From Granulosicoccaceae bacterium (GTDB taxonomy: Bacteria > Pseudomonadota > Gammaproteobacteria > Granulosicoccales > Granulosicoccaceae): a DNA stretch of 62,932 nt. The stretch covers positions 1 through 62,932 of the forward strand of contig JAHDCO010000020.1 in the NCBI GenBank assembly GCA_020629835.1. The letters are read 5' to 3'. The translations under genes were made by a program, and so were the position numbers. Positions 5,916 through 24,251 of this stretch are shown here, in pieces. The notes under the pieces were generated by a model. That model was not told the origin of the DNA. It worked only from the letters and a program-made list of their open reading frames with translations, and searched no databases. Numbering within the stretch: the first letter of the stretch is position 1; each line of letters opens with the position of its first letter.

Positions 5916-8090
5916 CTACCCCACACATATGGGTGCTTCGCTTTCCGTTGTGTCAATTCTCACCACAGCTTGACCTACGACACACGCTGAGGATAAACCG
6001 GCTGACCGTAAATCCTGCAGGCATTGGTCCGCATGGGTTTGTGGTATCAGCATGGCAAGACCGCCTCCGGTTTGCGGGTCAGTCAGGGCGATACGCTGCA
6101 CTGTGGTAAGCGACTCAGCGCCCTGTACTTCAGCCAACACGGCCTGATTAGCCGGGCTTAACGTGCTCTGCACCCCACTGTCGATCAAATCCGCTACACC
6201 CTCCAGCAGCGGAACGCTGGCGACCTTTACCGTACAAACCACCTGCTCCCGCGTCGCCAGCGCATGCAGGTGACCCAACAAACCAAAACCGGTGACGTCC
6301 GTGCAGAACGCCATGCCATGCTGCTGCGCCACGGCAGACGCCAGGCGATTGCTGGTCAGTAGGTGTTCCACGGCTGCTTCGATGTGCACACCAGCGGTCT
6401 TGTTTTGCATCAATCCGGCAAACAACACACCCACCCCCAGCGGTTGAGTCAGCACAATCGCCCAGGGGCCGTCCGAGCGCGGTGGTGCTTCTGTGGGTTG
6501 TGCGTTAACGACTAAGCCGACCTGCAGTTCTGAACCTTCTGATGTATGGCCACCGATCAATGCGCACTGCTCTGCATTAAGTTCTGCAACAACGCCGAGC
6601 ATCACTTGCTGAAGTTCGCGCGTAACGATCGTGTGGTGCGCATGTGGCAGCGTCAGGATAACTTGCGCCGAATGGCAAACAGCTGCCTGGGTATAAACAT
6701 CACTTAAGGCATGTAAGGTGGCGATTCGTCCAAAGCGGTAGGGATCGTCCATTAATGCACTGATTTGATCGACCGATTGAATCAGTTGATCGCTATGCCA
6801 AGTTACGCGAGCCGCATCATCACTTGCCTGTAACAACTGTGCCGCGTCCACCGAGTTGACTTTAGCCACAGGCAAATGCGCCAGCACGGTATTCAAAGCA
6901 TCTCCGGGCACTTTCGAACCACAGCCGTTACAGCGCATGACGGCCTCAGGGTCCGGCTTAGGGGTTGGCATGGTCATGGCTGAAAGGTCGATGAACTGCC
7001 GCATAAACTTTACGTCTATCCAGTTCTTCAGCTGCCACACCCACTTACCCGAAAACGTAACACCGCTACGACTACCAATCGCCTGGCGCTGACCTGTAGA
7101 CACCAACGATAAAAAATCCCGTTGTGGTGTATAGGTTTTAAACGGTTTTTGCGTGACCGCTGCGGTTAGGTTATGAAACAACACGGGCGCTTGCCTTACG
7201 GCGAAAACACCCGCCTTGGCGCTGGGTGTATCGACTTGTGTACCAATATCGCCAGTGGCAAAAACACCCGGATGCGAAACGCTTTGCAGATAGGCATCGG
7301 TACTGATGAACCCGCGCTCGTCCGTTTGAAAGCCAGCGGCTGTTGGCCATTGTGGCCCCGTTGCTCCAGTACACCACAGCAATTCGTCCACCGCTTGCAC
7401 GCGACCGTCAACAGACACCACTGACGCTTCGCGAACCTCGGCCACATCGAACTGTGTGTGCACTTGTACTCCAGCGGTTTGCGCTGCTTTTAAAGCCAAC
7501 TCCCCGACACGCGCTGGACGCTTGTTCATGGGCTTAACGCCACGTATAAACCAGTGCACCGCCGACGGCGTGGCACCGGTTCGCCGAGCCATAGCCATCA
7601 CCAGTTCGAAACCACCGGCCCCAGCGCCCACCACACCCCAAGTGCCGGCGTTACCTTGCGATACCGCCTGCCAGCGCTCCAGAAAACTGTGCACCGGTTT
7701 CACCGGTGTAGAAAATTCTGTTGCGCCTGGCGTTGTGAGGCTGGGTGTTGACCCTGTATCTAACGACAGTACATCGTATGCAATGTCCGGTCGCCCTTCC
7801 AGCTGTAACGTTTTTTCTTCGAGATTGATACCGGTCATATGCGCTTTGATAAACCGAATGCCGCCCCACGCACACAATCGCGTCAAGTCGATGTGGATGT
7901 CATCAAAGCTGTACAAACCTTCAATATATCCGGGCAACATGCCCGAATAAGGCGTCAGTACATCCCGAGAGATAAGCGTAATACGCACACCCGGTAACGG
8001 GTTCATCGCCCATCGTCGTAACACCAAGGCGTGCGAGTGGCCACCACCAACTAACACGATATCGTGATTAATCGGCGCGGCAGGGTTCAT
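5916..8090 (-). CDS. selD: Fusion of FAD/NAD(P) oxidoreductase and selenide,water dikinase
   Basis: 724 aa two-domain protein. Residues 1 to about 375 form a pyridine-nucleotide-disulfide oxidoreductase (NDH-2-like) with FAD motif VGGGHSHA at 14-21, a second dinucleotide motif GAGAGG at 155-160 and the FAD-closing ATGD at 278-281. Residues about 380-724 are SelD, which makes selenophosphate from selenide and ATP. The catalytic loop is CNGCGSK, with C390 in the place of the reactive Cys/Sec and Ser where E. coli has the second Cys. The glycine-rich ATP-binding and DxTGFGLLGH motifs (TDVTGFGLLGH) are present. This fusion is a known alternative SelD architecture; the flavin domain may supply or sense reduced selenium. 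The start overlaps the end of selU by 4 bp, which ties its product to tRNA 2-selenouridine formation. Confidence 0.92.
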   Translation of the reverse strand: MNPAAPINHDIVLVGGGHSHALVLRRWAMNPLPGVRITLISRDVLTPYSGMLPGYIEGLYSFDDIHIDLTRLCAWGGIRFIKAHMTGINLEEKTLQLEGRPDIAYDVLSLDTGSTPSLTTPGATEFSTPVKPVHSFLERWQAVSQGNAGTWGVVGAGAGGFELVMAMARRTGATPSAVHWFIRGVKPMNKRPARVGELALKAAQTAGVQVHTQFDVAEVREASVVSVDGRVQAVDELLWCTGATGPQWPTAAGFQTDERGFISTDAYLQSVSHPGVFATGDIGTQVDTPSAKAGVFAVRQAPVLFHNLTAAVTQKPFKTYTPQRDFLSLVSTGQRQAIGSRSGVTFSGKWVWQLKNWIDVKFMRQFIDLSAMTMPTPKPDPEAVMRCNGCGSKVPGDALNTVLAHLPVAKVNSVDAAQLLQASDDAARVTWHSDQLIQSVDQISALMDDPYRFGRIATLHALSDVYTQAAVCHSAQVILTLPHAHHTIVTRELQQVMLGVVAELNAEQCALIGGHTSEGSELQVGLVVNAQPTEAPPRSDGPWAIVLTQPLGVGVLFAGLMQNKTAGVHIEAAVEHLLTSNRLASAVAQQHGMAFCTDVTGFGLLGHLHALATREQVVCTVKVASVPLLEGVADLIDSGVQSTLSPANQAVLAEVQGAESLTTVQRIALTDPQTGGGLAMLIPQTHADQCLQDLRSAGLSSACVVGQAVVRIDTTESEAPICVG

Positions 8091-13411: not shown

Positions 13412-14023
13412 TTGTCTGATCCAGTTACGGCCAACAACCCGTTAGTGGTCGTTGTAGATACAAGCGCAGCCCGCGCTGCGATCATCAAATCTGGATTGCA
13501 AGCGGCAGGCTACACCAAAGTAGAAATCCTGCTTGACGACGACTCTCTCGCGTCCAGCATTGAAGCACTCGACCCAGACGTCATCATCATTGACGTTGAA
13601 AACCCCAAACGCAATCAGATAGACAACATGCTGCAGTTAACTAAGGCGGTTAAACGCCCAGTAGCCATGTTTGTTGAAGAATCGGATAAGAAGACCACTG
13701 AACGCGCCATTGAAGCCGGTGTTTCTGCCTACGTGGTAGACGGATTCAGAGAGGATCGAATCCACACCATCATGGAAATGGCTATCACTCGTTTCAACGC
13801 GTTTGCTCGACTCGAACGAGAGCTGGAGTCAGCCAAATCAAGCCTTAGCGAACAAAGCACGCTGAACCGTGCGAAGCACGTGTTAATGGAGCACAGAAAA
13901 ATAAGCGAACGGGAAGCGCATCAGTTACTGCAAAGAACAGCCATGAATCAAAACCGCCGAATGGTGGAGGTTGCTGAAAACCTCATCATGTCAGCATCAA
14001 TACTGAATGACTCCAACAAATGA
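13412..14023 (+). CDS. nasT: NasT-type ANTAR-domain antiterminator of nitrate assimilation
   Basis: 203 aa. Residues about 10-130 form a receiver-like domain whose usual acidic pocket is not intact (VVVDTSAARA where a phosphorylatable receiver has paired acids), as in NasT pseudo-receivers. Residues about 150-200 form an ANTAR RNA-binding domain (AKHVLMEHRKISEREAHQLL and following helices). In Azotobacter and Pseudomonas NasT binds the leader RNA of nitrate genes and prevents termination, and NasS holds it inactive without nitrate. The start is TTG at 13412; an in-frame TGA at 13400-13402 rules out a longer protein. A matching two-hairpin target lies downstream at 14230-14272. No nasS is present in the window. 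Confidence 0.9.
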   Translation: MSDPVTANNPLVVVVDTSAARAAIIKSGLQAAGYTKVEILLDDDSLASSIEALDPDVIIIDVENPKRNQIDNMLQLTKAVKRPVAMFVEESDKKTTERAIEAGVSAYVVDGFREDRIHTIMEMAITRFNAFARLERELESAKSSLSEQSTLNRAKHVLMEHRKISEREAHQLLQRTAMNQNRRMVEVAENLIMSASILNDSNK

Positions 14024-14046
14024 ATTCGTTAGTAACAAATTCAGAT

Positions 14047-14094
14047 GTTGTTGGTAGCGCGAAAACTCTGAAGAGTTTTGGTGCGAGCAACAAC
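14047..14094 (+). other. Long inverted repeat after nasT
   Basis: Outer arms GTTGTTG (14047-14053) and CAACAAC (14088-14094) flank an inner perfect eight-base-pair stem AAAACTCT/AGAGTTTT (14062-14079), with poorly paired sequence between. There is no T-run. It may be a weak terminator, an mRNA-stabilising stem or a processing site in the nasT-nrt transcript; the sequence does not decide between them. Confidence 0.4.
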
Positions 14095-14229
14095 CCTAAT
14101 GCACGAACATAGTGCAAGACAAATTTACTCAAAAGAGCGCAGTTGTTACAAGTGATTGAAAGTTAGGCCAATTTTACCAAAGGCACGTTTGGCACAGTTA
14201 GTTCATTAGCTGTCATGCAAAAAACGAAT

Positions 14230-14272
14230 GCGGTCTAATGGCGGATCGCAGGAATTTACAGCAACGCCGCTG
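14230..14272 (+). promoter_or_regulatory. ANTAR-binding RNA element with two hexaloop hairpins
   Basis: Hairpin P1 (14230-14249) pairs GCGGTCT with GGATCGC around the hexaloop AATGGC. Hairpin P2 (14259-14272) pairs CAGC with GCTG around the hexaloop AACGCC. Both loops have A at position 1 and G at position 4, which is the established recognition signature of ANTAR proteins. The linker is nine bases. The last seven bases of P2 (GCCGCTG, 14266-14272) are also the first bases of the downstream terminator stem, so P2 and terminator cannot form together. Binding of NasT to P1-P2 would favour read-through into nrtA. Confidence 0.88.
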
Positions 14273-14333
14273 AATCGATGCGCACACACAGGCTCCACGC
14301 TTGAGTGTGTGCATCGGTGCAGCGGCTTTTTTT
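14266..14333 (+). terminator. Regulated leader terminator upstream of nrtA
   Basis: The 5' arm from 14266 (GCCGCTGAATCGATGCGCAC and on) pairs with the 3' arm ending at 14326 (GCATCGGTGCAGCGGC), interrupted by one mismatch, one G-U pair and a two-base bulge. Seven T follow at 14327-14333. It lies 60 bases before the nrtA start and is the controlled element of the ANTAR leader. Confidence 0.9.
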
Positions 14334-14392
14334 GTGGCCGTTTTTTTTACTTCATAAAAACACAGTAGTACATCTTTAGGAGAACTCAACGA

Positions 14393-15775
14393 ATGATCAA
14401 CTTCAAACAACGAGGTTGTAAGGCTTTAGCCGCTGTGACGATGTTTGCAGCCTTTGCAGCTCCAGTATTTACCGTTCAAGCGGAAATGCTGGACGTGGAA
14501 AAAGACGAATTAAAGTTTGGCTTTATCAAACTCACCGACATGGCGCCATTGGCTGTTGCCTATGAGCTCGGTTACTTTGAAGACGAAGGCCTGTTCGTCA
14601 CCTTGGAGCCACAGGCGAATTGGAAGGTATTACTAGATCGGGTTATCACGGGTGAATTAGATGGTGCGCACATGTTGGCTGGCCAACCGCTGGCCGCCAC
14701 CATCGGCTTCGGTACCGAAGCACACATCGTCACCCCCTTCTCCATGGACTTAAACGGAAACGGCATCACCGTGTCGAATGAAGTGTGGGAGATGATGAAA
14801 GAGAACATTCCACACGACGCTGAAGGTAAACCCATTCACCCGATCTCCGCTGAGTCGCTGGTACCGGTGGTACAGAAATTCAACGACGAAGGCCAGACCT
14901 TTAACATGGGTATGGTTTTTCCGGTATCCACGCATAACTACGAGCTGCGCTACTGGTTAGCAGCCGGTGGCTTGAACCCCGGTTTTTACTCACCCACTGA
15001 CGTCTCCGGCCAAATCGAAGCCGACGTACTGTTATCGGTTACACCGCCGCCTCAAATGCCCGCCACACTTGAAGCAGGAACCATTCACGGTTACTGCGTA
15101 GGCGAGCCTTGGAACCAAGCGGCCGTGTTCAAAGGTATTGGTGTACCCGTTATTACTGACTACCAAATCTGGAAAAACAATCCAGAGAAAGTGTTCGGTT
15201 TAACCAAAGAATTTACCGAAGAGAATCCGAACACCACACTCGCTTTGACTAAAGCGTTAATCAGAGCGGCTAAGTGGTTGGATGAAGACAACAACGCGAA
15301 TCGTCTGGAAGCGGTAGAAATGTTAGCCCGCTCTGAATACGTCGGTGCGGATGCAGAAGTTATTGCTAATTCCATGACTGGTACATTCGAATTTGAGAAA
15401 GGCGATAAGCGGGACATTCCAGACTTTAACGTGTTCTATCGCTACTACGCGAACTACCCCTACTACTCCGATGCGGTTTGGTACTTAAGCCAAATGCGCC
15501 GTTGGGGTCAGATTTCAGAAGCAAAAGATGACAGCTGGTACCACGATGTGGCGAAGTCCGTGTACTTACCGGAAACCTACTTAACGGCCGCACGCATGTT
15601 GGTGGAAGAAGGTTATGTGGAAGAAGCGGACTTCCCTTGGGATAGCGACGGCTTCCGTGCTCCCACACCGGCGACAGACATTATCGACGGCATTGGCTAC
15701 GACGGTCGTACACCTAACGCATACCTTGAGAGCCTGACTATTGGTTTGAAAGGCACCGATATGGTTAACAACTAA
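14393..15775 (+). CDS. nrtA: Nitrate ABC transporter substrate-binding protein
   Basis: 460 aa periplasmic binding protein of the NrtA/CmpA family. The N-terminus (basic [10 protein letters not shown], hydrophobic [14 protein letters not shown], then VQA-EM) is a signal peptide cut near residue 31. The mature protein begins with the family's typical [19 protein letters not shown]. The export signal argues for the transporter component rather than cytoplasmic NasS, which is homologous. An AGGAG ribosome site precedes the ATG. The gene follows the ANTAR leader and starts the structural part of the operon nrtA-nrtB-nrtCD-nirB-nirD-nasA. Nitrate is the inferred ligand from the neighbouring nitrate and nitrite reductases; cyanate or nitrite transport cannot be excluded. 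Confidence 0.92.
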
Positions 15776-15812: not shown

Positions 15813-16886
15813 ATGTCTAATGCCACTGTCGCAATGCAAGAGCCGAGTGAACGGCGCGGAAAAGTCTTTTCAATGATCAACCGGGCCAGCGGATGGTTGG
15901 ATGCTTTCGGATTTTCCTGGCTGGTGCCCATACTTAAATTGGCCGCCGGGGATAGCCCAAAAGAGCAAATGCAGGAACTCAAACGGGTTCTACTCATTCC
16001 ACTGCTCGGAATATCCTTGTTCCTTCTCGCATGGACAGTGCTGGCACCCACCGTGAAAACATCCTTAGGCGCTGTGCCTGGGCCTGCACAAGTGTGGACT
16101 CAGGCCGGTGCACTGTGGGATGACCACGTACGGGAGCGTGAAAAGGCGGCAGCGTTCTACCAACGTCAAGACGATCGGAACGCCAAACTTATCGAAGCCG
16201 GTAACGAAGATAAGGTGAAGTTTCGTCAGTACACCGGTAAGCCCACATACATCGATCAAATTGGAACCTCTCTCCTTACCGTAGGTTTAGGATTTTTAAT
16301 CGCCACCTTGATTGCCGTGCCCTTGGGTGTTGCCTCGGGTTTATCGCGCACGGTTAACGGTGCGATAAACCCGCTGGTTCAAATATTTAAACCGGTATCA
16401 CCGCTGGCATGGTTACCGATAGTCACCATGATTGTGTCAGCAGCCTATACAGACCCCAGTGACTGGTTACCCAAATCATTACTCATTAGTGCGGTTACCG
16501 TGACTTTGTGTTCGATGTGGCCCACGCTCATCAACACAGCTTTAGGTGTTGCATCGGTTGATAAAGACTTAATGAACGTAAGCAAAGTCCTGCAACTACC
16601 CACATACAAAACCATCACTCAAATTGTTCTGCCCTCTTCCCTACCACTGATCTTTACCGGTCTACGGCTGTCACTGGGGGTTGGCTGGATGGTACTAATT
16701 GCAGCCGAGATGTTGGCTCAAAACCCAGGATTGGGAAAGTTTGTCTGGGATGAATTCCAGAATGGGTCTTCTCAGTCGTTGGCCAAGATCATGGTGGCGG
16801 TATTAACCATCGGCATCATTGGCTTCTTGTTAGATCGAATTATGTTCGCGTTACAAAAAGCCTTTACGTTTGGGGCCAGCCGGTAA
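15813..16886 (+). CDS. nrtB: Nitrate ABC transporter permease
   Basis: 357 aa inner-membrane permease of the BPD_transp_1 type. A hydrophobic segment near residues 50-65 is followed by a charged periplasmic stretch of roughly 70 residues and then by the five-to-six-helix permease core from about residue 150. The EAA-like coupling loop that contacts the ATPase is near LPSSLPLIFTGLRLSLGVGW. It lies 37 bp after nrtA and 6 bp before the ATPase gene, so it is part of the same transcript. Confidence 0.92.
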   Translation: MSNATVAMQEPSERRGKVFSMINRASGWLDAFGFSWLVPILKLAAGDSPKEQMQELKRVLLIPLLGISLFLLAWTVLAPTVKTSLGAVPGPAQVWTQAGALWDDHVREREKAAAFYQRQDDRNAKLIEAGNEDKVKFRQYTGKPTYIDQIGTSLLTVGLGFLIATLIAVPLGVASGLSRTVNGAINPLVQIFKPVSPLAWLPIVTMIVSAAYTDPSDWLPKSLLISAVTVTLCSMWPTLINTALGVASVDKDLMNVSKVLQLPTYKTITQIVLPSSLPLIFTGLRLSLGVGWMVLIAAEMLAQNPGLGKFVWDEFQNGSSQSLAKIMVAVLTIGIIGFLLDRIMFALQKAFTFGASR

Positions 16887-16892
16887 ACGATC

Positions 16893-18707
16893 ATGGATAA
16901 AGCAAACACAAAATACTTAGAAGTTTCAAACCTTTCAAAACACTACGGTGAAGGTGCGAACCGAACCGATGTGTTGAAAGACGTCAACCTGAATGTGGCT
17001 GAGGGTGAATTCATTGCCATTGTCGGGTTCTCGGGTTCGGGTAAGACCACGTTGATTTCAACCTTAGCGGGGCTGATCGAAGGTGACGGTGGTGGTGTCA
17101 TCTTCAAAGACCAAGAGATTGATGGGCCCAGTGCTGAACGCAGTATCGTATTTCAGTCCTACTCGCTGATGCCCTGGTTGAGCGTGAAAGGCAATGTGGC
17201 ACTTGCCGTTGATCAGGTGCATAAAAGCATGAGCCGTAAAGAACGTGCAGACATCGTGGATAAGTACATTGACATGGTCGGGCTGACGCCTGCCAAAGAT
17301 CGCTTACCGGCGGAGCTTTCTGGTGGCATGAGACAGCGAGTAGCGGTAGCCCGAGCCTTAGCGATGCAATCTGAAGTGCTGTTACTCGACGAGCCCTTAT
17401 CGGCATTGGATGCGTTGACTCGTTCAAAGCTGCAAGCAGAGTTTGCCGACATCTGTGAAAAAGAGCGCAAGACCATCGTGTTGGTTACCAACGATGTGGA
17501 CGAAGCCATCTTGTTGGCTGATCGGGTTATCCCGCTAACGCCGGCACCCAATGCCACGTTGGCCAAGGAATTTAAGGTCGACATCGCTCGACCGAGAAAC
17601 GCGAGCGCTATGAATTCGGACGAAACTTTCATAAAGCTACGCGCCGAAATTACCGCGTACCTGATGGCTATGAAAACCGAAAGTGACGCAAAGGAAGAAG
17701 CACAAACCCAACTACCGAACGTTATCCCGTTTGCAGGTAAAAAAGATAGAGATGCTGTGCCTAAGGCTTACGCGGAAGCCGCTCAAAGCGTTAAAGACGA
17801 TCGCTACCTGGAGTTATCAAAGCTCAGTAAAGTGTACCCCACCCCGAAAGGCCCATTAACTGTTGTCGATGAAATTGATTTCACGATTAAAAAAGGCGAA
17901 TTCATTACGCTGATTGGTCACTCGGGCTGCGGTAAATCCACGGTGCTTTCAATGGCCGCTGGGCTTAACTCCATCACCAATGGTGGAATTCTCTTAGATG
18001 GTAAGCACGTAGTAGATGGAAGCCCGGAGCGTGCGGTTGTGTTTCAATCGCCTTCGCTAATGCCTTGGTTGACGGCGTATGAAAACGTGGCCTTAGGCGT
18101 TGAGCAGGTCTACCCGAACGCATCAAAATCTGAACGATGTGATGTCATCGAGTATTACTTACAAAAAGTCGGCCTGGCGGATTCCATGCACAAATCCGCG
18201 CAGGATCTGTCAAACGGCATGAAACAACGTGTGGGTATTGCTCGAGCGTTTGCTCTATCTCCTAAACTGCTGTTGTTGGACGAGCCGTTCGGCATGCTGG
18301 ATTCGTTAACCCGTTGGGAACTGCAGGACGTGTTAATGGATGTGTGGACGCGCACTAAGGTTACAGCCATTTGCGTCACGCACGATGTGGATGAAGCTAT
18401 CTTGCTGGCAGACCGAGTACTCATGATGTCAAACGGTCCTAACGCAAAGATCGGCAACGTGATGGAAGTTGATTTACCTCGCCCACGCTCTCGTGAAGCC
18501 TTACTGGCACATGATGACTACTACGCGTATCGCGAAGAGCTACTTGAATTCCTCGAAGCCTACGAAGGCGGTGCCAACCCATCCGAGGAAAAACTGTCCA
18601 GTATTTCTGCCAAGCGCGAAAAGCGTTTACAACGCCAACGCTCACAAGCGCCTCTGCCAGCGCCTTTGCAAGCGCCTTTGCAAGCGCCTGTGGCAGCGGT
18701 GGAGTAG
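16893..18707 (+). CDS. Nitrate ABC transporter, two fused ATPase domains (NrtC-NrtD type)
   Basis: 604 aa with two complete ABC ATPase domains in one chain. Domain 1 (about 8-260) has Walker A GFSGSGKT at 45-52, signature LSGGMRQR at 142-149 and Walker B LLLDEP; its H-loop reads VTNDVDEA, with Asn200 in place of the usual His. Domain 2 (about 305-560) has Walker A GHSGCGKS at 342-349, signature LSNGMKQR and a normal H-loop VTHDVDEA (H497). Cyanobacteria use separate NrtC and NrtD; here one polypeptide supplies both nucleotide-binding sites. The C-terminus carries an Ala-Pro-Leu repeat tail not needed for the ATPase fold. The asymmetry suggests that only one site is fully catalytic. Confidence 0.93.
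   Translation: MDKANTKYLEVSNLSKHYGEGANRTDVLKDVNLNVAEGEFIAIVGFSGSGKTTLISTLAGLIEGDGGGVIFKDQEIDGPSAERSIVFQSYSLMPWLSVKGNVALAVDQVHKSMSRKERADIVDKYIDMVGLTPAKDRLPAELSGGMRQRVAVARALAMQSEVLLLDEPLSALDALTRSKLQAEFADICEKERKTIVLVTNDVDEAILLADRVIPLTPAPNATLAKEFKVDIARPRNASAMNSDETFIKLRAEITAYLMAMKTESDAKEEAQTQLPNVIPFAGKKDRDAVPKAYAEAAQSVKDDRYLELSKLSKVYPTPKGPLTVVDEIDFTIKKGEFITLIGHSGCGKSTVLSMAAGLNSITNGGILLDGKHVVDGSPERAVVFQSPSLMPWLTAYENVALGVEQVYPNASKSERCDVIEYYLQKVGLADSMHKSAQDLSNGMKQRVGIARAFALSPKLLLLDEPFGMLDSLTRWELQDVLMDVWTRTKVTAICVTHDVDEAILLADRVLMMSNGPNAKIGNVMEVDLPRPRSREALLAHDDYYAYREELLEFLEAYEGGANPSEEKLSSISAKREKRLQRQRSQAPLPAPLQAPLQAPVAAVE
18648..18695 (+). repeat. Four 12-bp repeats encoding an Ala-Pro tail
   Basis: Units start at 18648, 18660, 18672 and 18684, each close to GCGCCTTTGCAA, and the two middle copies are identical. 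They encode APLP, APLQ, APLQ and APVA at the extreme C-terminus of the fused ATPase, just before its stop. The array is likely to have grown by slippage. Confidence 0.85.
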
Positions 18708-18712
18708 AGCTA

Positions 18713-21169
18713 ATGAGCAATAAACAAAAACTCGTTGTCGTGGGCAATGGTATGGCACCCGGGCGAATGCTGGAGCATTTGTTTGAACTGGATGCTTCTG
18801 CTTATGACGTCACCATCTTCAACGCAGAGCCAAGGGTAAACTACAACCGCTTAATGCTATCGCCCGTGCTATCGGGCGAGAAGCAATACGAAGACATCAT
18901 CACACACGACGATGCGTGGTACGAATCCCATGGTGTGACACTGCATAAACAAAGCAAAATCACCCAGATCGATCGCTCAGCAAAGTGTGTGGAATCAGAT
19001 ACCGGCATCAAAGCTGACTACGACAAGTTAGTCATAGCTACCGGTTCCTCACCGTTTATCATCCCGCTTCCCGGGCACGACGCTGAAGGTGTACTCACCT
19101 ATCGCGACTTAGACGATGTAGAGACCATGATCAAAACCGCCAATGAAGGCGGGCACGCCATCGTCATTGGTGGTGGTCTGTTGGGTTTGGAAGCGGCCGC
19201 TGGTTTACGAGCCCAGGGCATGGACGTCACCGTTGTGCATCTTGCGTCCACGCTGATGGAAAGGCAGCTGGATGCACCGGCGGGATACTTACTGGAGCAA
19301 GCGTTTGAAGACCTTGGCATCTCAGTGGTCACCGGCGCAAATACAAAGACCATCCTGACCGAGAACAATCACGTTGTTGGAGTTGAGCTTGAAGACGGCA
19401 CCGTCTTTGATGCGCGCATGGTAGTTATGGCGGTGGGTATACGCCCATCCTCCGAATTGGCTAAATCCATCGATTTGGAAACCAATCGAGGCATTGTGGT
19501 AACAGACAGCATGCACACATCTGATGAAGCGATATTTGCGTTAGGCGAATGCGCTGAACATCGTGGGATGTGTTACGGCTTGGTGGCTCCGTTGTACGAT
19601 ATGGCGAAGGTCATCGCCAAGCAACTCGTGGGTGACACGACTGCGCAATACACCGGATCTTCAACCGCGACAAAATTGAAAGTCACCGGAATCGATCTGT
19701 ACTCCGCCGGTGATTTTTCCGATGCCGCTGATCACGAAGAATTGGTGCTGCGCGATGGCTCGGCAGGTGTGTACAAGAAGATCGTACTGAAAGATAACAA
19801 GATCGTTGGTACGGTTTTGTATGGTGATACCAACGACGGTCCCTGGTATTTTGACTTATTAAAGAAGGCGGAGGACGTTTCAGAGTTTCGCGATACCTTG
19901 TTGTACGGTCAGGCGTACCAGACGGGAGACGCGCCGGACCCTACGGCAGCCGTTGCAGCCTTGCCAGATGATGCTGAGATCTGCGGTTGTAACGGCGTAT
20001 GCAAAGGGAAAATAGTTTCTGAAATTAGCGCTCTGAAACTGACCAATTTAGACGATGTAAGAGCACACACCAAAGCTTCAGCCAGTTGCGGTTCTTGCAC
20101 AGGATTAGTCGAACAAGTATTAAAACTGACCTTAGGTGACAGCTACCAAGTCGGTGCTGTGGTACCGATGTGCGGTTGTACCGACTTAGGCCATGCTGAT
20201 GTTCGCCAATTAATCAAGTCAAAGGGCTTAAAAAGCATTCCTCAAGTTATGCAAGAGCTTGAATGGAAAACCTCCTGCGGTTGTGCCAAATGCCGCCCTG
20301 CTCTGAACTACTACCTCGTTAGCGATTGGCCAGAAGAATACGCCGATGATTACCAGTCGCGTTTTATCAACGAACGCGCCCACGCGAATATTCAAAAAGA
20401 CGGTACCTACTCCGTCGTACCGCGGATGTGGGGCGGTATGACCTCCTCAAAGGAACTACGGGCAATAGCTGATGTGGTCGATAAGTACGACATTCCTTCG
20501 GTGAAAGTAACCGGCGGTCAACGCATCGATATGTTGGGTGTTAAAAAAGAGGACTTACCCTTAGTCTGGAAGGACTTGGGTAAAGTCGGTTTTGTCTCTG
20601 GCCATGCGTACGCAAAAGGGCTTAGAACGGTAAAAACCTGTGTAGGAACTGACTGGTGTCGATTCGGCACGCAGGATTCCACCGGCCTTGGTATTAAGTT
20701 AGAAAAATTCCTGTGGGGTTCCTGGACGCCAGCAAAAGTAAAACTGGGCGTATCGGGCTGCCCGCGTAATTGCGCGGAAGCTACCTGTAAAGATGTCGGT
20801 GTTATTTGCGTCGACAGCGGTTACGAAATCCACTTTGCCGGCGCTGCTGGATTAGATATCAAAGGCACCGAAGTGTATGGCTTAGTCAAAACCGAAGAGG
20901 AAGTGATTGAACACATCACAGCCCTTATACAAATGTACCGTGAACAAGGGCATTACCTGGAACGCATCTACAAATGGGCCAAGCGTATTGGCTACGACGA
21001 AGTGCGACGTCAATTGTTTGATGATGCAGAACGTCGCAAAGCCTACTACGACAACTTTGTTCATTCGCAGCGCTTTGCCCAGGTTGATCCTTGGAGCGAA
21101 CGCGTATCCGGTAAGGACAAGCACGAGTTCAACCCAATGGCCGTACTAAAAATGGAAGTGGCGGTATGA
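18713..21169 (+). CDS. nirB: Nitrite reductase (NADH) large subunit
   Basis: 818 aa, close to the 847 aa of E. coli NirB. The N-terminal FAD domain starts VVVGNGMAPGR, and the NADH domain has VIGGGLLGLEAA near residue 150. Two BFD-type [2Fe-2S] segments follow (ICGCNGVCKG with SCGSC, and MCGCTD with CGCAKC). The C-terminal sulfite/nitrite reductase half carries the siroheme and [4Fe-4S] ligands in CVGTDWC and GCPRNC. The enzyme reduces nitrite to ammonium with NADH in the cytoplasm. It starts 5 bp after the nrtCD stop and overlaps nirD by four bases, so it is co-expressed with nitrate uptake. Confidence 0.96.
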   Translation: MSNKQKLVVVGNGMAPGRMLEHLFELDASAYDVTIFNAEPRVNYNRLMLSPVLSGEKQYEDIITHDDAWYESHGVTLHKQSKITQIDRSAKCVESDTGIKADYDKLVIATGSSPFIIPLPGHDAEGVLTYRDLDDVETMIKTANEGGHAIVIGGGLLGLEAAAGLRAQGMDVTVVHLASTLMERQLDAPAGYLLEQAFEDLGISVVTGANTKTILTENNHVVGVELEDGTVFDARMVVMAVGIRPSSELAKSIDLETNRGIVVTDSMHTSDEAIFALGECAEHRGMCYGLVAPLYDMAKVIAKQLVGDTTAQYTGSSTATKLKVTGIDLYSAGDFSDAADHEELVLRDGSAGVYKKIVLKDNKIVGTVLYGDTNDGPWYFDLLKKAEDVSEFRDTLLYGQAYQTGDAPDPTAAVAALPDDAEICGCNGVCKGKIVSEISALKLTNLDDVRAHTKASASCGSCTGLVEQVLKLTLGDSYQVGAVVPMCGCTDLGHADVRQLIKSKGLKSIPQVMQELEWKTSCGCAKCRPALNYYLVSDWPEEYADDYQSRFINERAHANIQKDGTYSVVPRMWGGMTSSKELRAIADVVDKYDIPSVKVTGGQRIDMLGVKKEDLPLVWKDLGKVGFVSGHAYAKGLRTVKTCVGTDWCRFGTQDSTGLGIKLEKFLWGSWTPAKVKLGVSGCPRNCAEATCKDVGVICVDSGYEIHFAGAAGLDIKGTEVYGLVKTEEEVIEHITALIQMYREQGHYLERIYKWAKRIGYDEVRRQLFDDAERRKAYYDNFVHSQRFAQVDPWSERVSGKDKHEFNPMAVLKMEVAV

Positions 21170-21492
21170 ACAATCAGATAGATGCCTGGGTACAGGTGGG
21201 GGAAGTTAACGATATCCCTGTGCGGGGAGCCCGTTGCGTTCAGCATGAAGATACGACCATCGCCCTGTTTCGAAGTGCTACCGATGAAATCTTTGCGTTA
21301 GAAGATCGTTGTCCACACAAAAAGGGCCCACTGTCACAAGGCATCGTTCACGACGACTGTGTCACCTGCCCGCTGCACAATTGGGTTATCTCGTTGAAAA
21401 GTGGCGAAGCACAAGGTGCTGATTCTGGGAAAACGCGCTCTTATCCTGTAAAAGTCGTGGGTAAAGACGTATTGCTCGGGCTACCACAGTGA
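21166..21492 (+). CDS. nirD: Nitrite reductase (NADH) small subunit
   Basis: 108 aa Rieske-type protein of the NirD family. The motif pair is DRCPHKKGPLS and CPLHNW: in many NirD proteins the Rieske ligands are partly lost, but here both Cys-X-His motifs (C-P-H and C-P-L-H) are present, so cluster binding is plausible. It forms the NirBD complex for nitrite reduction. It overlaps nirB by four bases (ATGA) and nasA by four bases (GTGA). Confidence 0.94.
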   Translation: MNNQIDAWVQVGEVNDIPVRGARCVQHEDTTIALFRSATDEIFALEDRCPHKKGPLSQGIVHDDCVTCPLHNWVISLKSGEAQGADSGKTRSYPVKVVGKDVLLGLPQ

Positions 21493-24251
21493 GTAGCCCG
21501 GTCAAATCCACCTGCCCATACTGCGGTGTAGGCTGCGGCGTGTCCGTAGAGCAATCCCCTGATGGCAGTCTTACGGTCTCAGGGGACGAAAACCACCCGG
21601 CTAACTTTGGCCGGCTCTGTTCAAAAGGTTCAGCCCTGGGCGAAACGGTTGATTTGGAAGGTCGCTTACTTCAGCCGCTGATTAACGACAAAGCCACTGA
21701 CTGGTCAACCGCGCTGGATTTGGTGGCCAACACCTTTGCCCAGACCATTGAGCAACACGGGCCGGACTCTGTTGCGTTTTACTTATCCGGGCAACTGCTA
21801 ACCGAGGATTATTACGTAGCCAATAAGTTAATCAAAGGCTTTATGGGTACGGCAAACATCGACACAAACTCCCGGCTGTGCATGGCCTCGTCGGTGGCTG
21901 GGCACAAACGGGCGTTTGGTAGTGACACCGTACCCAACACCTACGAAGACCTGGAAAAGGCCGACTTGGTTGTACTGGTGGGTTCTAACCTAACGTGGTG
22001 CCACCCGGTCATCGCACAGCGTATCGAAGCAGCCCATGCCGAAAACGCATCGAAACACCTGGTGGTAATCGACCCAAAGAAAACGCGTACCGCCGATGTT
22101 GCGGATACCCACCTGGCGATTGAACCCGATTCCGATGGCGTGTTATTCCAGGGTTTGTTACGATGGTTACATCAACACGAATTGGTGGATGAAGCCTACA
22201 TCCAACAGCACACCGAAGGTTTTGAAAAATCACTGAGTGCCACAGAGGGGTGCGCACCCGAATACGTTGCCGAGCACACGGGATTAACCGTTGACGAAGT
22301 GATTGCGTTTTATACCTTGTGGGGGCGTACCGAACGGGTTGTCACTGGCTACAGCCAAGGCGTTAACCAATCCACCTGCGGTACGGACAAAGTCAACGCC
22401 ATTCTTAATTGCCATTTGGCCAGCGGTAGAATCGGAACCGAAGGTTCAGGGCCCTTTTCGTTAACCGGGCAACCTAACGCCATGGGCGGCCGCGAAGTGG
22501 GGGGGCTGGCCAATATGTTGGCCGCTCATATGGACATTGATAACCCAGACCATCAGGAAATTGCACGATTCTTTTGGAACGCACCAAATCTCGCAACGTC
22601 CGTCGGGCTCAAAGCGGTCGACATGTTCGATGCGGTTAAGCATGGAAAAATAAAAGCAATTTGGATTATGGCCACTAATCCAGTGGTATCGATGCCCGAA
22701 GCAAACAAGGTGCGTGATGCCTTGGAAACGTGCGATTTTGTTGTGGTGTCTGATGTGCTTGCGAATACCGACACCATCGCCACCGCGACTGTCAAACTGC
22801 CCTCGCTTGGTTGGGCGGAAAAAGATGGCACCGTAACCAATTCAGAAAGACGGATTTCAAGGCAACGCAGATTCTTGCCGGCCCCAGGAGACGCCAAGGC
22901 CGATTGGTGGCAGATGTGTGAGGTGGCAAAACGTATGGGGTGGTCTGAGAATTTCAGTTATTCAACGCCTGCGGACATCTTCAGAGAACATGCGTCCCTC
23001 ACAGCGTTTGAAAATGAAGGACACCGCGATTTAAACCTTGAAGAACTCGCGGAAATTTCCAATGAAGAGTATGACGCGTTAGTGCCATTCCAATGGGGTT
23101 GTGATGCCGACGGTAGTACCGAAAATAATCAGCGATTTTTTGCTGACGGAAAATTCTATACACCCAGCGGTAAAGCGCGATTTATTCCAATCAAGCCTGT
23201 TGAATCATTAAAAGCGGTTACCCATACGCAACCGAAAGTAAAAACGAACTCAGCTAAGCCGATACGCGCCTTGAGCACAAACCCCGACGGGAATCATGAA
23301 CTTCTTGTGTCTTTGAACACAGGCCGTGTGCGTGATCAATGGCACACCATGACGCGTACCGGAAAGTCAGCTCGATTAGCTGACCACTATGCAGAGCCTT
23401 ATTGCGAAATCAGCCACGTTGATGCGGTGCAACTGGGTGTGCAGGACGCCGAACTAATAAAATTATCTATAGCGGATACTTCTGTTGTATTGCGGGTACT
23501 AATCAGCAATGAACAAACCCAGGGCCATATCTTTGTGCCGTTTCATTGGAATGACCAATGGGCATCGGCAGCTCGCATAAACACACTCGTGGCCTCCGAT
23601 GTGGATCCTTTTTCCGGGCAACCCGCGCTAAAAAGTGGGCGTGTGACGATCAGTCGCGCGAACCTGCCCTACCATGGCTTTGTCGTCTCGAGAAAAAAGC
23701 CCTCGATTGATGGCTTAGACTATTGGGCACTGGCCAAGGCTCGTGAGGGTTGGCGATTAGAATTTGCGCTTAAACAGCGGCCTGACGATATCGACATGTG
23801 GATGAATCAATTCACATCCGGAGCCGAACCCACACACGCTTACGATTTCCAACGGCAAAGCTGGCGCCGCGCCGAGTTCAAGCAAGACCAACTTCAAAGT
23901 GTGGCTTACTTTGCGAAAGGTCTTGTTAGCGTCTCCCGTTCATGGGCAACGCAGTTGCTAACTGAAACCTTCGATAGACCGTGTACTCGCTATAACGTTC
24001 TGGCCGGTTTTCCCGGTGCAGGCGCAGTCGATAAAGGTGCCATTATTTGTGCCTGTATGAACGTTGGACTCAACGAGCTAACCGCCAGCATTCAGGCCGG
24101 AAATCAAAACGTTAATGCAGTTGGCGACGATACCAGCGCCGGAACCGGTTGCGGTTCTTGCCGCATCGATATACGAAAGCTGATTGATGCACATGAAGTA
24201 AAGCGAGCACCGACTCCGGTGCTAGCAGAAGCCGCTGTTGCTGTAAGTTAA
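21489..24251 (+). CDS. nasA: Assimilatory nitrate reductase, molybdopterin catalytic subunit
   Basis: 920 aa cytoplasmic molybdenum bis-MGD enzyme. It starts at GTG 21489, overlapping the nirD stop. The N-terminal [4Fe-4S] cysteines are C9, C12, C16 and C44 (CPYCGVGC and GRLCSKG). The Mo-MGD domains follow through residue about 750. A C-terminal BFD-like [2Fe-2S] domain (ICACMNVG with TGCGSC) near 845-895 lets it accept electrons without a separate small subunit. No NasB-type NADH reductase gene is in the window; NirB or a ferredoxin/flavodoxin may be the donor. It is the last gene of the nitrate operon, with no clear terminator after it. Confidence 0.95.
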   Translation: MSSPVKSTCPYCGVGCGVSVEQSPDGSLTVSGDENHPANFGRLCSKGSALGETVDLEGRLLQPLINDKATDWSTALDLVANTFAQTIEQHGPDSVAFYLSGQLLTEDYYVANKLIKGFMGTANIDTNSRLCMASSVAGHKRAFGSDTVPNTYEDLEKADLVVLVGSNLTWCHPVIAQRIEAAHAENASKHLVVIDPKKTRTADVADTHLAIEPDSDGVLFQGLLRWLHQHELVDEAYIQQHTEGFEKSLSATEGCAPEYVAEHTGLTVDEVIAFYTLWGRTERVVTGYSQGVNQSTCGTDKVNAILNCHLASGRIGTEGSGPFSLTGQPNAMGGREVGGLANMLAAHMDIDNPDHQEIARFFWNAPNLATSVGLKAVDMFDAVKHGKIKAIWIMATNPVVSMPEANKVRDALETCDFVVVSDVLANTDTIATATVKLPSLGWAEKDGTVTNSERRISRQRRFLPAPGDAKADWWQMCEVAKRMGWSENFSYSTPADIFREHASLTAFENEGHRDLNLEELAEISNEEYDALVPFQWGCDADGSTENNQRFFADGKFYTPSGKARFIPIKPVESLKAVTHTQPKVKTNSAKPIRALSTNPDGNHELLVSLNTGRVRDQWHTMTRTGKSARLADHYAEPYCEISHVDAVQLGVQDAELIKLSIADTSVVLRVLISNEQTQGHIFVPFHWNDQWASAARINTLVASDVDPFSGQPALKSGRVTISRANLPYHGFVVSRKKPSIDGLDYWALAKAREGWRLEFALKQRPDDIDMWMNQFTSGAEPTHAYDFQRQSWRRAEFKQDQLQSVAYFAKGLVSVSRSWATQLLTETFDRPCTRYNVLAGFPGAGAVDKGAIICACMNVGLNELTASIQAGNQNVNAVGDDTSAGTGCGSCRIDIRKLIDAHEVKRAPTPVLAEAAVAVS

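Follow-up and report, generated by a model that had tools for sequence, protein, structure and literature searches.

Does an antitermination leader that has kept every recognised feature of its class still report nitrate when the sensor protein that accompanies it in related bacteria is not found? This question is raised by a nitrate-assimilation locus of a Granulosicoccaceae bacterium. The window, which is the whole stretch of DNA that was analysed (62,932 nt), carries the following genes and an associated hairpin:

13412-14023, forward strand: nasT, encoding a receiver (Response_reg, PF00072, 39.3 bits) plus ANTAR (PF03861, 59.2 bits) protein of 203 aa, TTG start
14047-14094, forward strand: long, imperfect hairpin after the nasT stop (GTTGTTG..CAACAAC), without a U-tract, from folding
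14393-15775, forward strand: nrtA, nitrate-binding protein (PF13379), 460 aa, with an N-terminal signal sequence by eye
15813-16886, forward strand: nrtB permease, best NCBIfam match ntrB (151.7 bits, below cut-off)
16893-18707, forward strand: nrtCD, two fused ABC ATPase domains, from domain matches
18713-21169, forward strand: nirB, assimilatory nitrite reductase large subunit (TIGR02374, above cut-off)
21166-21492, forward strand: nirD, small subunit (TIGR02378, above cut-off)
21489-24251, forward strand: nasA-type molybdopterin oxidoreductase with a C-terminal BFD [2Fe-2S] domain

The nasA-type ORF stays below cut-off for the NCBIfam NasC, NasA, and formate dehydrogenase models alike. The window NrtA is up to 86% identical to the NrtA proteins of its relatives (best 80 of 566). 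A repeat origin of the 14024-14200 spacer, which includes the 14047-14094 hairpin, was rejected, as one copy was found in the genome. Elsewhere in the window, a 724-aa ORF (5916-8090, reverse strand) appears by eye to fuse FAD/NAD oxidoreductase-like and SelD-like parts, and adjoins a rhodanese-like 372-aa ORF.

The RNA leader and its promoter region

The region between nasT and nrtA contains two promoter-like elements followed by the leader:

14100-14116, no strand assigned: NtrC-like palindrome TGCAC-N7-GTGCA, perfect
14190-14205, forward strand: sigma54-like site TGGCAC-N5-GTTCA, -24 element intact, -12 GC changed to TC
14229-14250, forward strand: P1 hairpin, UGCGGUCU-AAUGGC-GGAUCGCA, 8 bp, hexaloop AAUGGC with A1 and G4, from folding and covariance model R1
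14259-14272, forward strand: P2 hairpin (antiterminator), CAGC-AACGCC-GCUG, 4 bp, with A1 and G4, from folding and model R1
14266-14326, forward strand: intrinsic terminator stem, 5' arm GCCGCUG (14266-14272), 3' arm CAGCGGC (14320-14326)
14327-14333, forward strand: U7 tract of the terminator, from the sequence

Both loops consist of six bases on stems of at least 3 bp, and the linker is short, with a loop-to-loop distance of 26. The 5' arm of the terminator is exactly the final seven bases of P2. Folded freely, 14229-14333 reaches -57.2 kcal/mol with the terminator formed (-45.3 kcal/mol for the terminator hairpin by itself) and -46.1 kcal/mol with P2 forced; the penalty of 11.1 kcal/mol for keeping P2 folded indicates that P2 and the terminator are mutually exclusive and that the terminator is the default. 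For the 126-nt fold, z is -6.3. An earlier sequence-only reading had described an ANTAR leader upstream of nrtA beside nasT, with loops AATGGC and AACGCC, a terminator that begins with the last seven bases of P2, and exclusive pairing between the two. This anatomy was borne out base by base, including the 370 bp between the end of nasT (14023) and the nrtA ATG (14393); P1 begins at 14229, 205 bp past the 3' end of nasT.

In a scan of the 369-base intergenic region for a hairpin pair with an overlapping terminator, the leader scored 28.0, a value reached in 0 of 1000 dinucleotide shuffles (any match at all occurred in 16 of 1000), and the runner-up in the window, over both strands in 370-base tiles, scored 19.5. 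The relatives used for comparison were the best 80 of 566 confirmed nrtA stretches, 77-86% identical in their best segment, whose titles name mainly Hyphomicrobiales and Rhodobacterales plus a few MAGs under other names. Among these best 80, a mechanical scan found the P1/P2/terminator design no more than 420 bases from nrtA in 50, compared with 11 of 1600 shuffles; the loop-to-loop distance was 18-29 in 44 of the 50 and 36-44 in the other six.

The covariance search that the sequence-only reading proposed yielded nothing in Rfam, and a model was made from the relatives in its place. Rfam, searched with the window and with 14000-14450, gave no match at the gathering threshold and no ANTAR match, and at E up to 10 it returned eleven weak matches, all unrelated. 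Model R1, which was trained on 38 of the 50 scan-positive relatives (window excluded; 12 with long linkers or near-duplicates omitted), found the leader as its top match in the window at 26.4 bits (E 3.7e-5; next match 11.9 bits). At E up to 0.1, R1 also recovers 20 of the 30 scan-negative loci among the best 80 relatives. The R1 alignment is 99.1% paired, and 8 of 9 pairs are changed on both sides, with compensatory stem changes; these pair counts overstate the case, because the training relatives were chosen by a scan that demands P1/P2 pairing, and independent support comes from the shuffle control, the window match, and the scan-negative loci that R1 recovered (20 of 30). Because no shuffle attained the observed score, the relatives share the design, and a covariance model trained without the window finds it, the leader is an ANTAR-type terminator/antiterminator switch, a new addition to an established class of RNAs.

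A search of the window's own genome with R1, in which 150 of 1681 candidates were scored, gave a best match at chance level (E 0.6), and was non-exhaustive to the point that the window's own 26.4-bit element escaped it. A narrower search of this genome for the P2 core, which is blind to P2 stems of other sequence, gave 30 matches, against 23 with a reversed control, and of the 30 only the window copy has P1 and the terminator. A simple terminator scan listed a smaller hairpin (14321-14342) and not the main terminator, because the main stem has mismatches. This smaller terminator-like hairpin (14321-14349; AGCGGC-U7-G-UGGCCGU, then another T-run) shares the main terminator's 3' arm, and might be a back-up stop.

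Upstream of the leader, the palindrome at 14100, which is taken here to be the NtrC consensus motif, was present in perfect form in 0 of 2000 mononucleotide shuffles, and the sigma54-like site follows 90 bp downstream of it. Several relatives have a partial palindrome 91-93 bp upstream of their sigma54-type site. By the pattern of GG at -24 and GC at -12, 12 bases apart, the window site departs at -12, where it reads TC; it scores 10.5 bits, which 9 of 2000 mononucleotide shuffles equal or exceed, and this is less than all sites of this type found 117-250 bp before nrtA in 36 of the best 80 relatives (13.9-26.5 bits). With its changed -12 element, the site can be assigned to sigma54 only tentatively. 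No sigma54 site is recognisable at the sister locus (L011), and a simple promoter scan gave no sigma70-like site before nrtA. In four loci without a sigma54 site (L011, L045, L055, and L081), TGC(A/G)TCGCA- or TGCATTGCA-like palindromes are visible by eye upstream of nrtA, perhaps the site of another regulator.

NasS, NasT, and the origin of the cluster

The RNA half of the switch is complete, and the regulatory system is incomplete. Among the best 80 of 566 relatives, nasT is present in 72 loci, and in 71 of these nasT and the leader are separated by an ORF of 343-426 aa; at the exception (L066) no single ORF of at least 200 aa occupies this place. These ORFs, sixteen of which were aligned, are probably NasS, judging from their position, their NrtA-type kinship, and the lack of a signal sequence in those that were printed. 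In the window, the 370-bp gap between nasT and nrtA holds no NasS-type ORF. A comparison of 13951-14400 with the 71 NasS sequences for remnants gave a best E of 0.004, judged to be chance, in a match that spans the terminator and T-rich sequence upstream of nrtA. Genome-wide, PF13379 strongly matches two proteins, namely NrtA and a paralogue of 506 aa (contig C94), and has two matches below the family cut-off on C115 and C55 (23.5 and 20.4 bits; frames of 349 and 357 aa). A NasS query matched only the two strong proteins and neither of the weaker frames, and a domain scan of NrtCD gave no NasS-like domain. Neither the locus nor the rest of the genome yielded a NasS; the assembly is 97.13% complete in 149 contigs, so that a nasS gene could still lie elsewhere. 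The C94 paralogue (L002, 305-2655, reverse strand) has a Tat-like signal by eye and stands beside a permease-like ORF, perhaps as part of another anion uptake system.

NasT is the one ANTAR protein found in this genome, and its domain scan gives Response_reg and ANTAR only, with no NIT domain. To locate RNA contacts, NasT was mapped onto EutV by alignment, with the numbering fixed by published residues. Of the seven RNA-contact positions that NasTs conserve, four differ in the window, whereas 110 other NasTs have at most two changed (Y or F being accepted at Y164). In EutV numbering, the changes are R142Q (position changed in 0 of 110 others), K143S (5 of 110), Y164H (neither Y nor F in 3 of 110), and R168Q (2 of 110), while K149, E160, and M172 are retained; in window numbering the altered residues are Q148, S149, H170, and Q174. 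One NasS-linked NasT (L251) also carries H and Q at two of the altered sites. By the same offset, the window Q, H, and Q are equated with R340, W362, and R366 of NasR, whose alanine mutants lose RNA binding according to the available text (PMC7496416). Alanine mutants of EutV are likewise described, in the accessible part of the report, as binding RNA more weakly, 55-fold for Y164 and 8-fold for R142 (PMC8934654). By analogy, RNA binding by the window NasT is possibly weakened, and the His at the Y164 position may still stack on G4.

Compared with NasS-linked NasTs, the ANTAR domain of the window averages 42.5% identity; every one of the 72 alphaproteobacterial rows is higher (52.4-68.6%), though six rows from its own class are lower (38.0-42.4%). 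The receiver domain reaches 43.0%, near the bottom of the alphaproteobacterial range (42.1-56.9%), and keeps the acceptor Asp. Both domains have drifted from the sister L011, to which the window NasT is 55% identical in the receiver and 51% in the ANTAR domain, and L043 77 and 68%. The ORF is nevertheless intact over 203 codons at ~0.8 changes per site, where ~8 stops would be expected if it were unconstrained, which indicates that NasT is still under selection and that its binding may have been re-tuned rather than lost.

The NasT tree nests the window with L011 (Pseudohoeflea) and L043 (support 100/99) on an end branch of 0.8 (median 0.14). The NrtA tree places it inside an alphaproteobacterial set of 44 rows (support 98) on an end branch of 0.27 (median 0.13); since this branch is also above the median, part of the acceleration is general. 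RpoB, used as the organism marker, is 85-86% identical to that of three genomes of the genus and 80% to one of the family. Within the class, identities are 73-74% to G152 and G223, 70% to G037, and 76% over 587 residues to a G045 fragment, compared with 59-60% to four alphaproteobacteria (no RpoB came from the genome of L057). A search of 26 same-genus genomes gave a best NasT match of 37% identity. Because NasT and NrtA, unlike RpoB, group with Hyphomicrobiales homologues, the nas cluster was probably acquired from a Hyphomicrobiales-type source, with nasS lost afterwards; such a horizontal transfer with later gene loss is the simplest account.

Readings of the switch

The RNA switch itself is textbook, while the standard reading, in which nitrate frees NasT from NasS, fails as it stands without NasS. 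The sequence-only reading had invoked the known NasR/NasT mechanism and, with it, nitrate-regulated read-through. Neither, in that form, is supported at this locus, given that no NIT domain and no NasS were found, that four of seven contacts are altered, and that NasT relies on NasS for its nitrate response in the accessible text on Paracoccus denitrificans (PMC3795266). With NasS not found and NasT altered at RNA-gripping residues, the switch has probably lost the textbook manner of reporting nitrate.

The preferred reading, to which a probability of about one half is given, is expression that is blind to nitrate and controlled by nitrogen status, with read-through by an unsequestered and possibly weakened NasT. 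A Hyphomicrobiales-type nasT-nasS-nrt-nir-nas cluster would have brought the leader in, and nasS would have been lost later. By default, the nascent RNA would form the 14266-14326 terminator, and transcription would end at ~14330. NasT bound to the P1 and P2 hexaloops would let P2 hold the first seven bases of the terminator, allowing read-through into nrtA. Once NasS was gone, read-through would be nitrate-independent, because without NasS nothing known sequesters NasT. The remaining control would be nitrogen status at the promoter, through the NtrC-like and sigma54-like sites, and the level of read-through would be set by the residual RNA binding of the altered NasT. As far as the accessible parts of the reports go, nasS mutants of P. 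denitrificans express nas without nitrate and retain ammonium repression (PMC3795266, PMC5424462). In the window, the RNA half is canonical and the protein half is changed at the residues that grip RNA, which makes compensatory weakening directly testable.

An unlikely alternative is that the locus is a working nitrate switch with a replacement sensor, in which another protein or the receiver of NasT senses nitrate or nitrogen. The intact NasT ORF with its acceptor Asp, the canonical leader, and the recurrence of a NasS-less nasT-nrtA order in nine other genomes (leader seen in six), which makes the arrangement seem maintained, fit such a sensor; however, no candidate was found, there being one ANTAR protein, no NIT domain on NasT, and no NasS-like domain on NrtCD, and the contact residues of NasT are altered. 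Somewhat less probable is a regulatory relic, in which NasT no longer binds, the leader is a fixed attenuator, and control is by the promoter only. The four altered contacts, with R142 changed in none of the other 110 NasTs, and the low ANTAR identity (42.5%, below all 72 alphaproteobacterial rows, though six class rows are lower) point in this direction, but NasT is free of stops and frameshifts despite its long branch, every recognised P1 and P2 feature is kept, and a permanent -45 kcal/mol terminator before nitrate genes would be costly. An ordinary NasS-NasT pair, with nasS in the unassembled 3% of the genome, is improbable: the genome is a draft (97.13% complete, 149 contigs), yet nasS stands beside nasT in 71 of the 72 nasT-bearing loci among the best 80 of 566 relatives, its usual place lies inside a contig, closed up and without a convincing remnant, and the contact changes in NasT would be left unexplained. 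Chance hairpins beside a plain terminator can be dismissed as very improbable, since the short stems and the occasional match in shuffles (16 of 1000) stand against a score that none of 1000 shuffles reached, a relatives' model that matches the window, and the same placement relative to nasT and nrtA.

Taken as a system, the locus is a variant of known ones, with the sensor missing and the regulator altered. In Pseudomonas aeruginosa AmiC-AmiR, the ANTAR protein is freed from a binding-protein inhibitor. The window shares regulation by an ANTAR protein with that system as described in the available text (PMC3369931), but no inhibitor gene was found in its genome. There is a close likeness to the P. 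denitrificans NasS-NasT/nasA leader, which in the accessible text has a REC-ANTAR NasT gene upstream, a two-hairpin non-coding leader before the nitrate-assimilation operon, and NtrC involvement (PMC3795266, PMC5424462); the window differs in that no NasS was found in its genome, its operon opens with an ABC transporter gene (nrtA), and the NasT contacts are altered. Like the Klebsiella oxytoca NasR/nasF leader, as far as its published descriptions were accessible, the window has two A1/G4 hexaloop hairpins, a P2 that overlaps the terminator, and a nitrate-assimilation operon downstream (PMC7496416, PMC3369931). Unlike NasR, whose own NIT domain is described there as sensing nitrate, its regulator has a receiver and no NIT domain. 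With EutV and the eut leaders of Enterococcus faecalis it shares a REC-ANTAR protein and a dual-hexaloop antiterminator, going by the available portions of the reports (PMC3369931, PMC8934654), whereas EutV, described there as activated by phosphorylation, serves another pathway and the window residues at R142, Y164, and R168 are replaced. In the accessible part of a Halomonas survey, NasR and NasST are described as seeming to exclude each other almost completely (PMC8014003). Within the literature searched, from which most subscription papers were absent, NasT is presented alongside NasS and appeared without it only in constructed nasS mutants, and the available text of two papers on marine nitrate clusters (PMC12388587, PMC4899447) contains nothing on NasT.

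NasT without NasS in other Gammaproteobacteria

Within the class Gammaproteobacteria, an ANTAR protein is present in 126 of 370 genomes, and 80 of the 126 were examined (the 79 best ANTAR scores plus the window's own genome). Counting only PF13379 matches of ~250 bits or more, 34 of the 80, window included, have a strong PF13379 domain that starts 270-989 bp past the ANTAR domain, and 11 have one within 140 bp downstream of it. Forty loci were fetched, 33 with the 270-989 bp spacing and seven with <140 bp. In 15 of these 40, nasT directly precedes nrtA (~70% or more identical to reference NrtAs) with no nasS between them. A second NasS/NrtA-like domain, without a signal, lies ~3-4 kb downstream in five of the 15, and among the remaining 10, nine genomes lack any other PF13379 protein above 100 bits (G202 has one). 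The nine NasS-less genomes (G037, G045, G076, G147, G152, G179, G223, G262, and G341) are 96-100% complete. Labelling loci of this kind as a nitrate-responsive 'NasST' would be unsafe.

In five of the nine, P1, P2, and a terminator precede nrtA (L216, L227, L234, L236, and L238), according to a raw scan with no shuffle baseline. In a sixth (G045) a leader with longer spacing was seen by eye, while the leader scan gave none at L241, L244, and L247. Model R1, at E up to 1, matched 0 of the 9 loci, and the leader is less certain in these nine genomes than in the window.

On the NasT tree, the NasS state changes at least four times. The acceptor Asp is lost in 7 of 8 NasS-less class NasTs vs. 0 of 13 NasS-linked ones, although with 2-3 independent pairs this is phylogenetically not significant; receiver domains are also more diverged in the NasS-less members than in the NasS-linked ones (identity, p = 2e-5; ANTAR domain, p = 0.08), again over only 2-3 independent pairs. 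L234, from which no nasT ORF was recovered, and L223, whose genome has other PF13379 proteins, were omitted from this test. Three loci counted as NasS-linked (L250, L252, and L255) have neighbours that match NrtA references better than NasS references, show no signal by eye, and start <60 bp from nasT. The window departs from the trend of receiver decay, as its NasS is gone and its Asp is kept. It is conceivable, though rather doubtful, that NasT without NasS forms a distinct, repeatedly evolved class of ANTAR antiterminators, in which the leader is kept and NasT is rebuilt, by receiver decay in the other class genomes or by a weaker RNA grip in the window, turning a nitrate-responsive switch into a valve whose read-through is constitutive or governed by another input.

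The signal-less NasS/NrtA-like domains ~3-4 kb downstream of nasT (L220, L222, L228, L230, and L246) might be a relocated nitrate sensor. Three of the five (L220, L222, and L228) match NrtA slightly better than NasS references. The L246 copy lies inside a 716-aa ORF with an ambiguous start, and the L222 copy is fused to an NrtC-like ATPase in a 726-aa ORF with an NrtC-like start.
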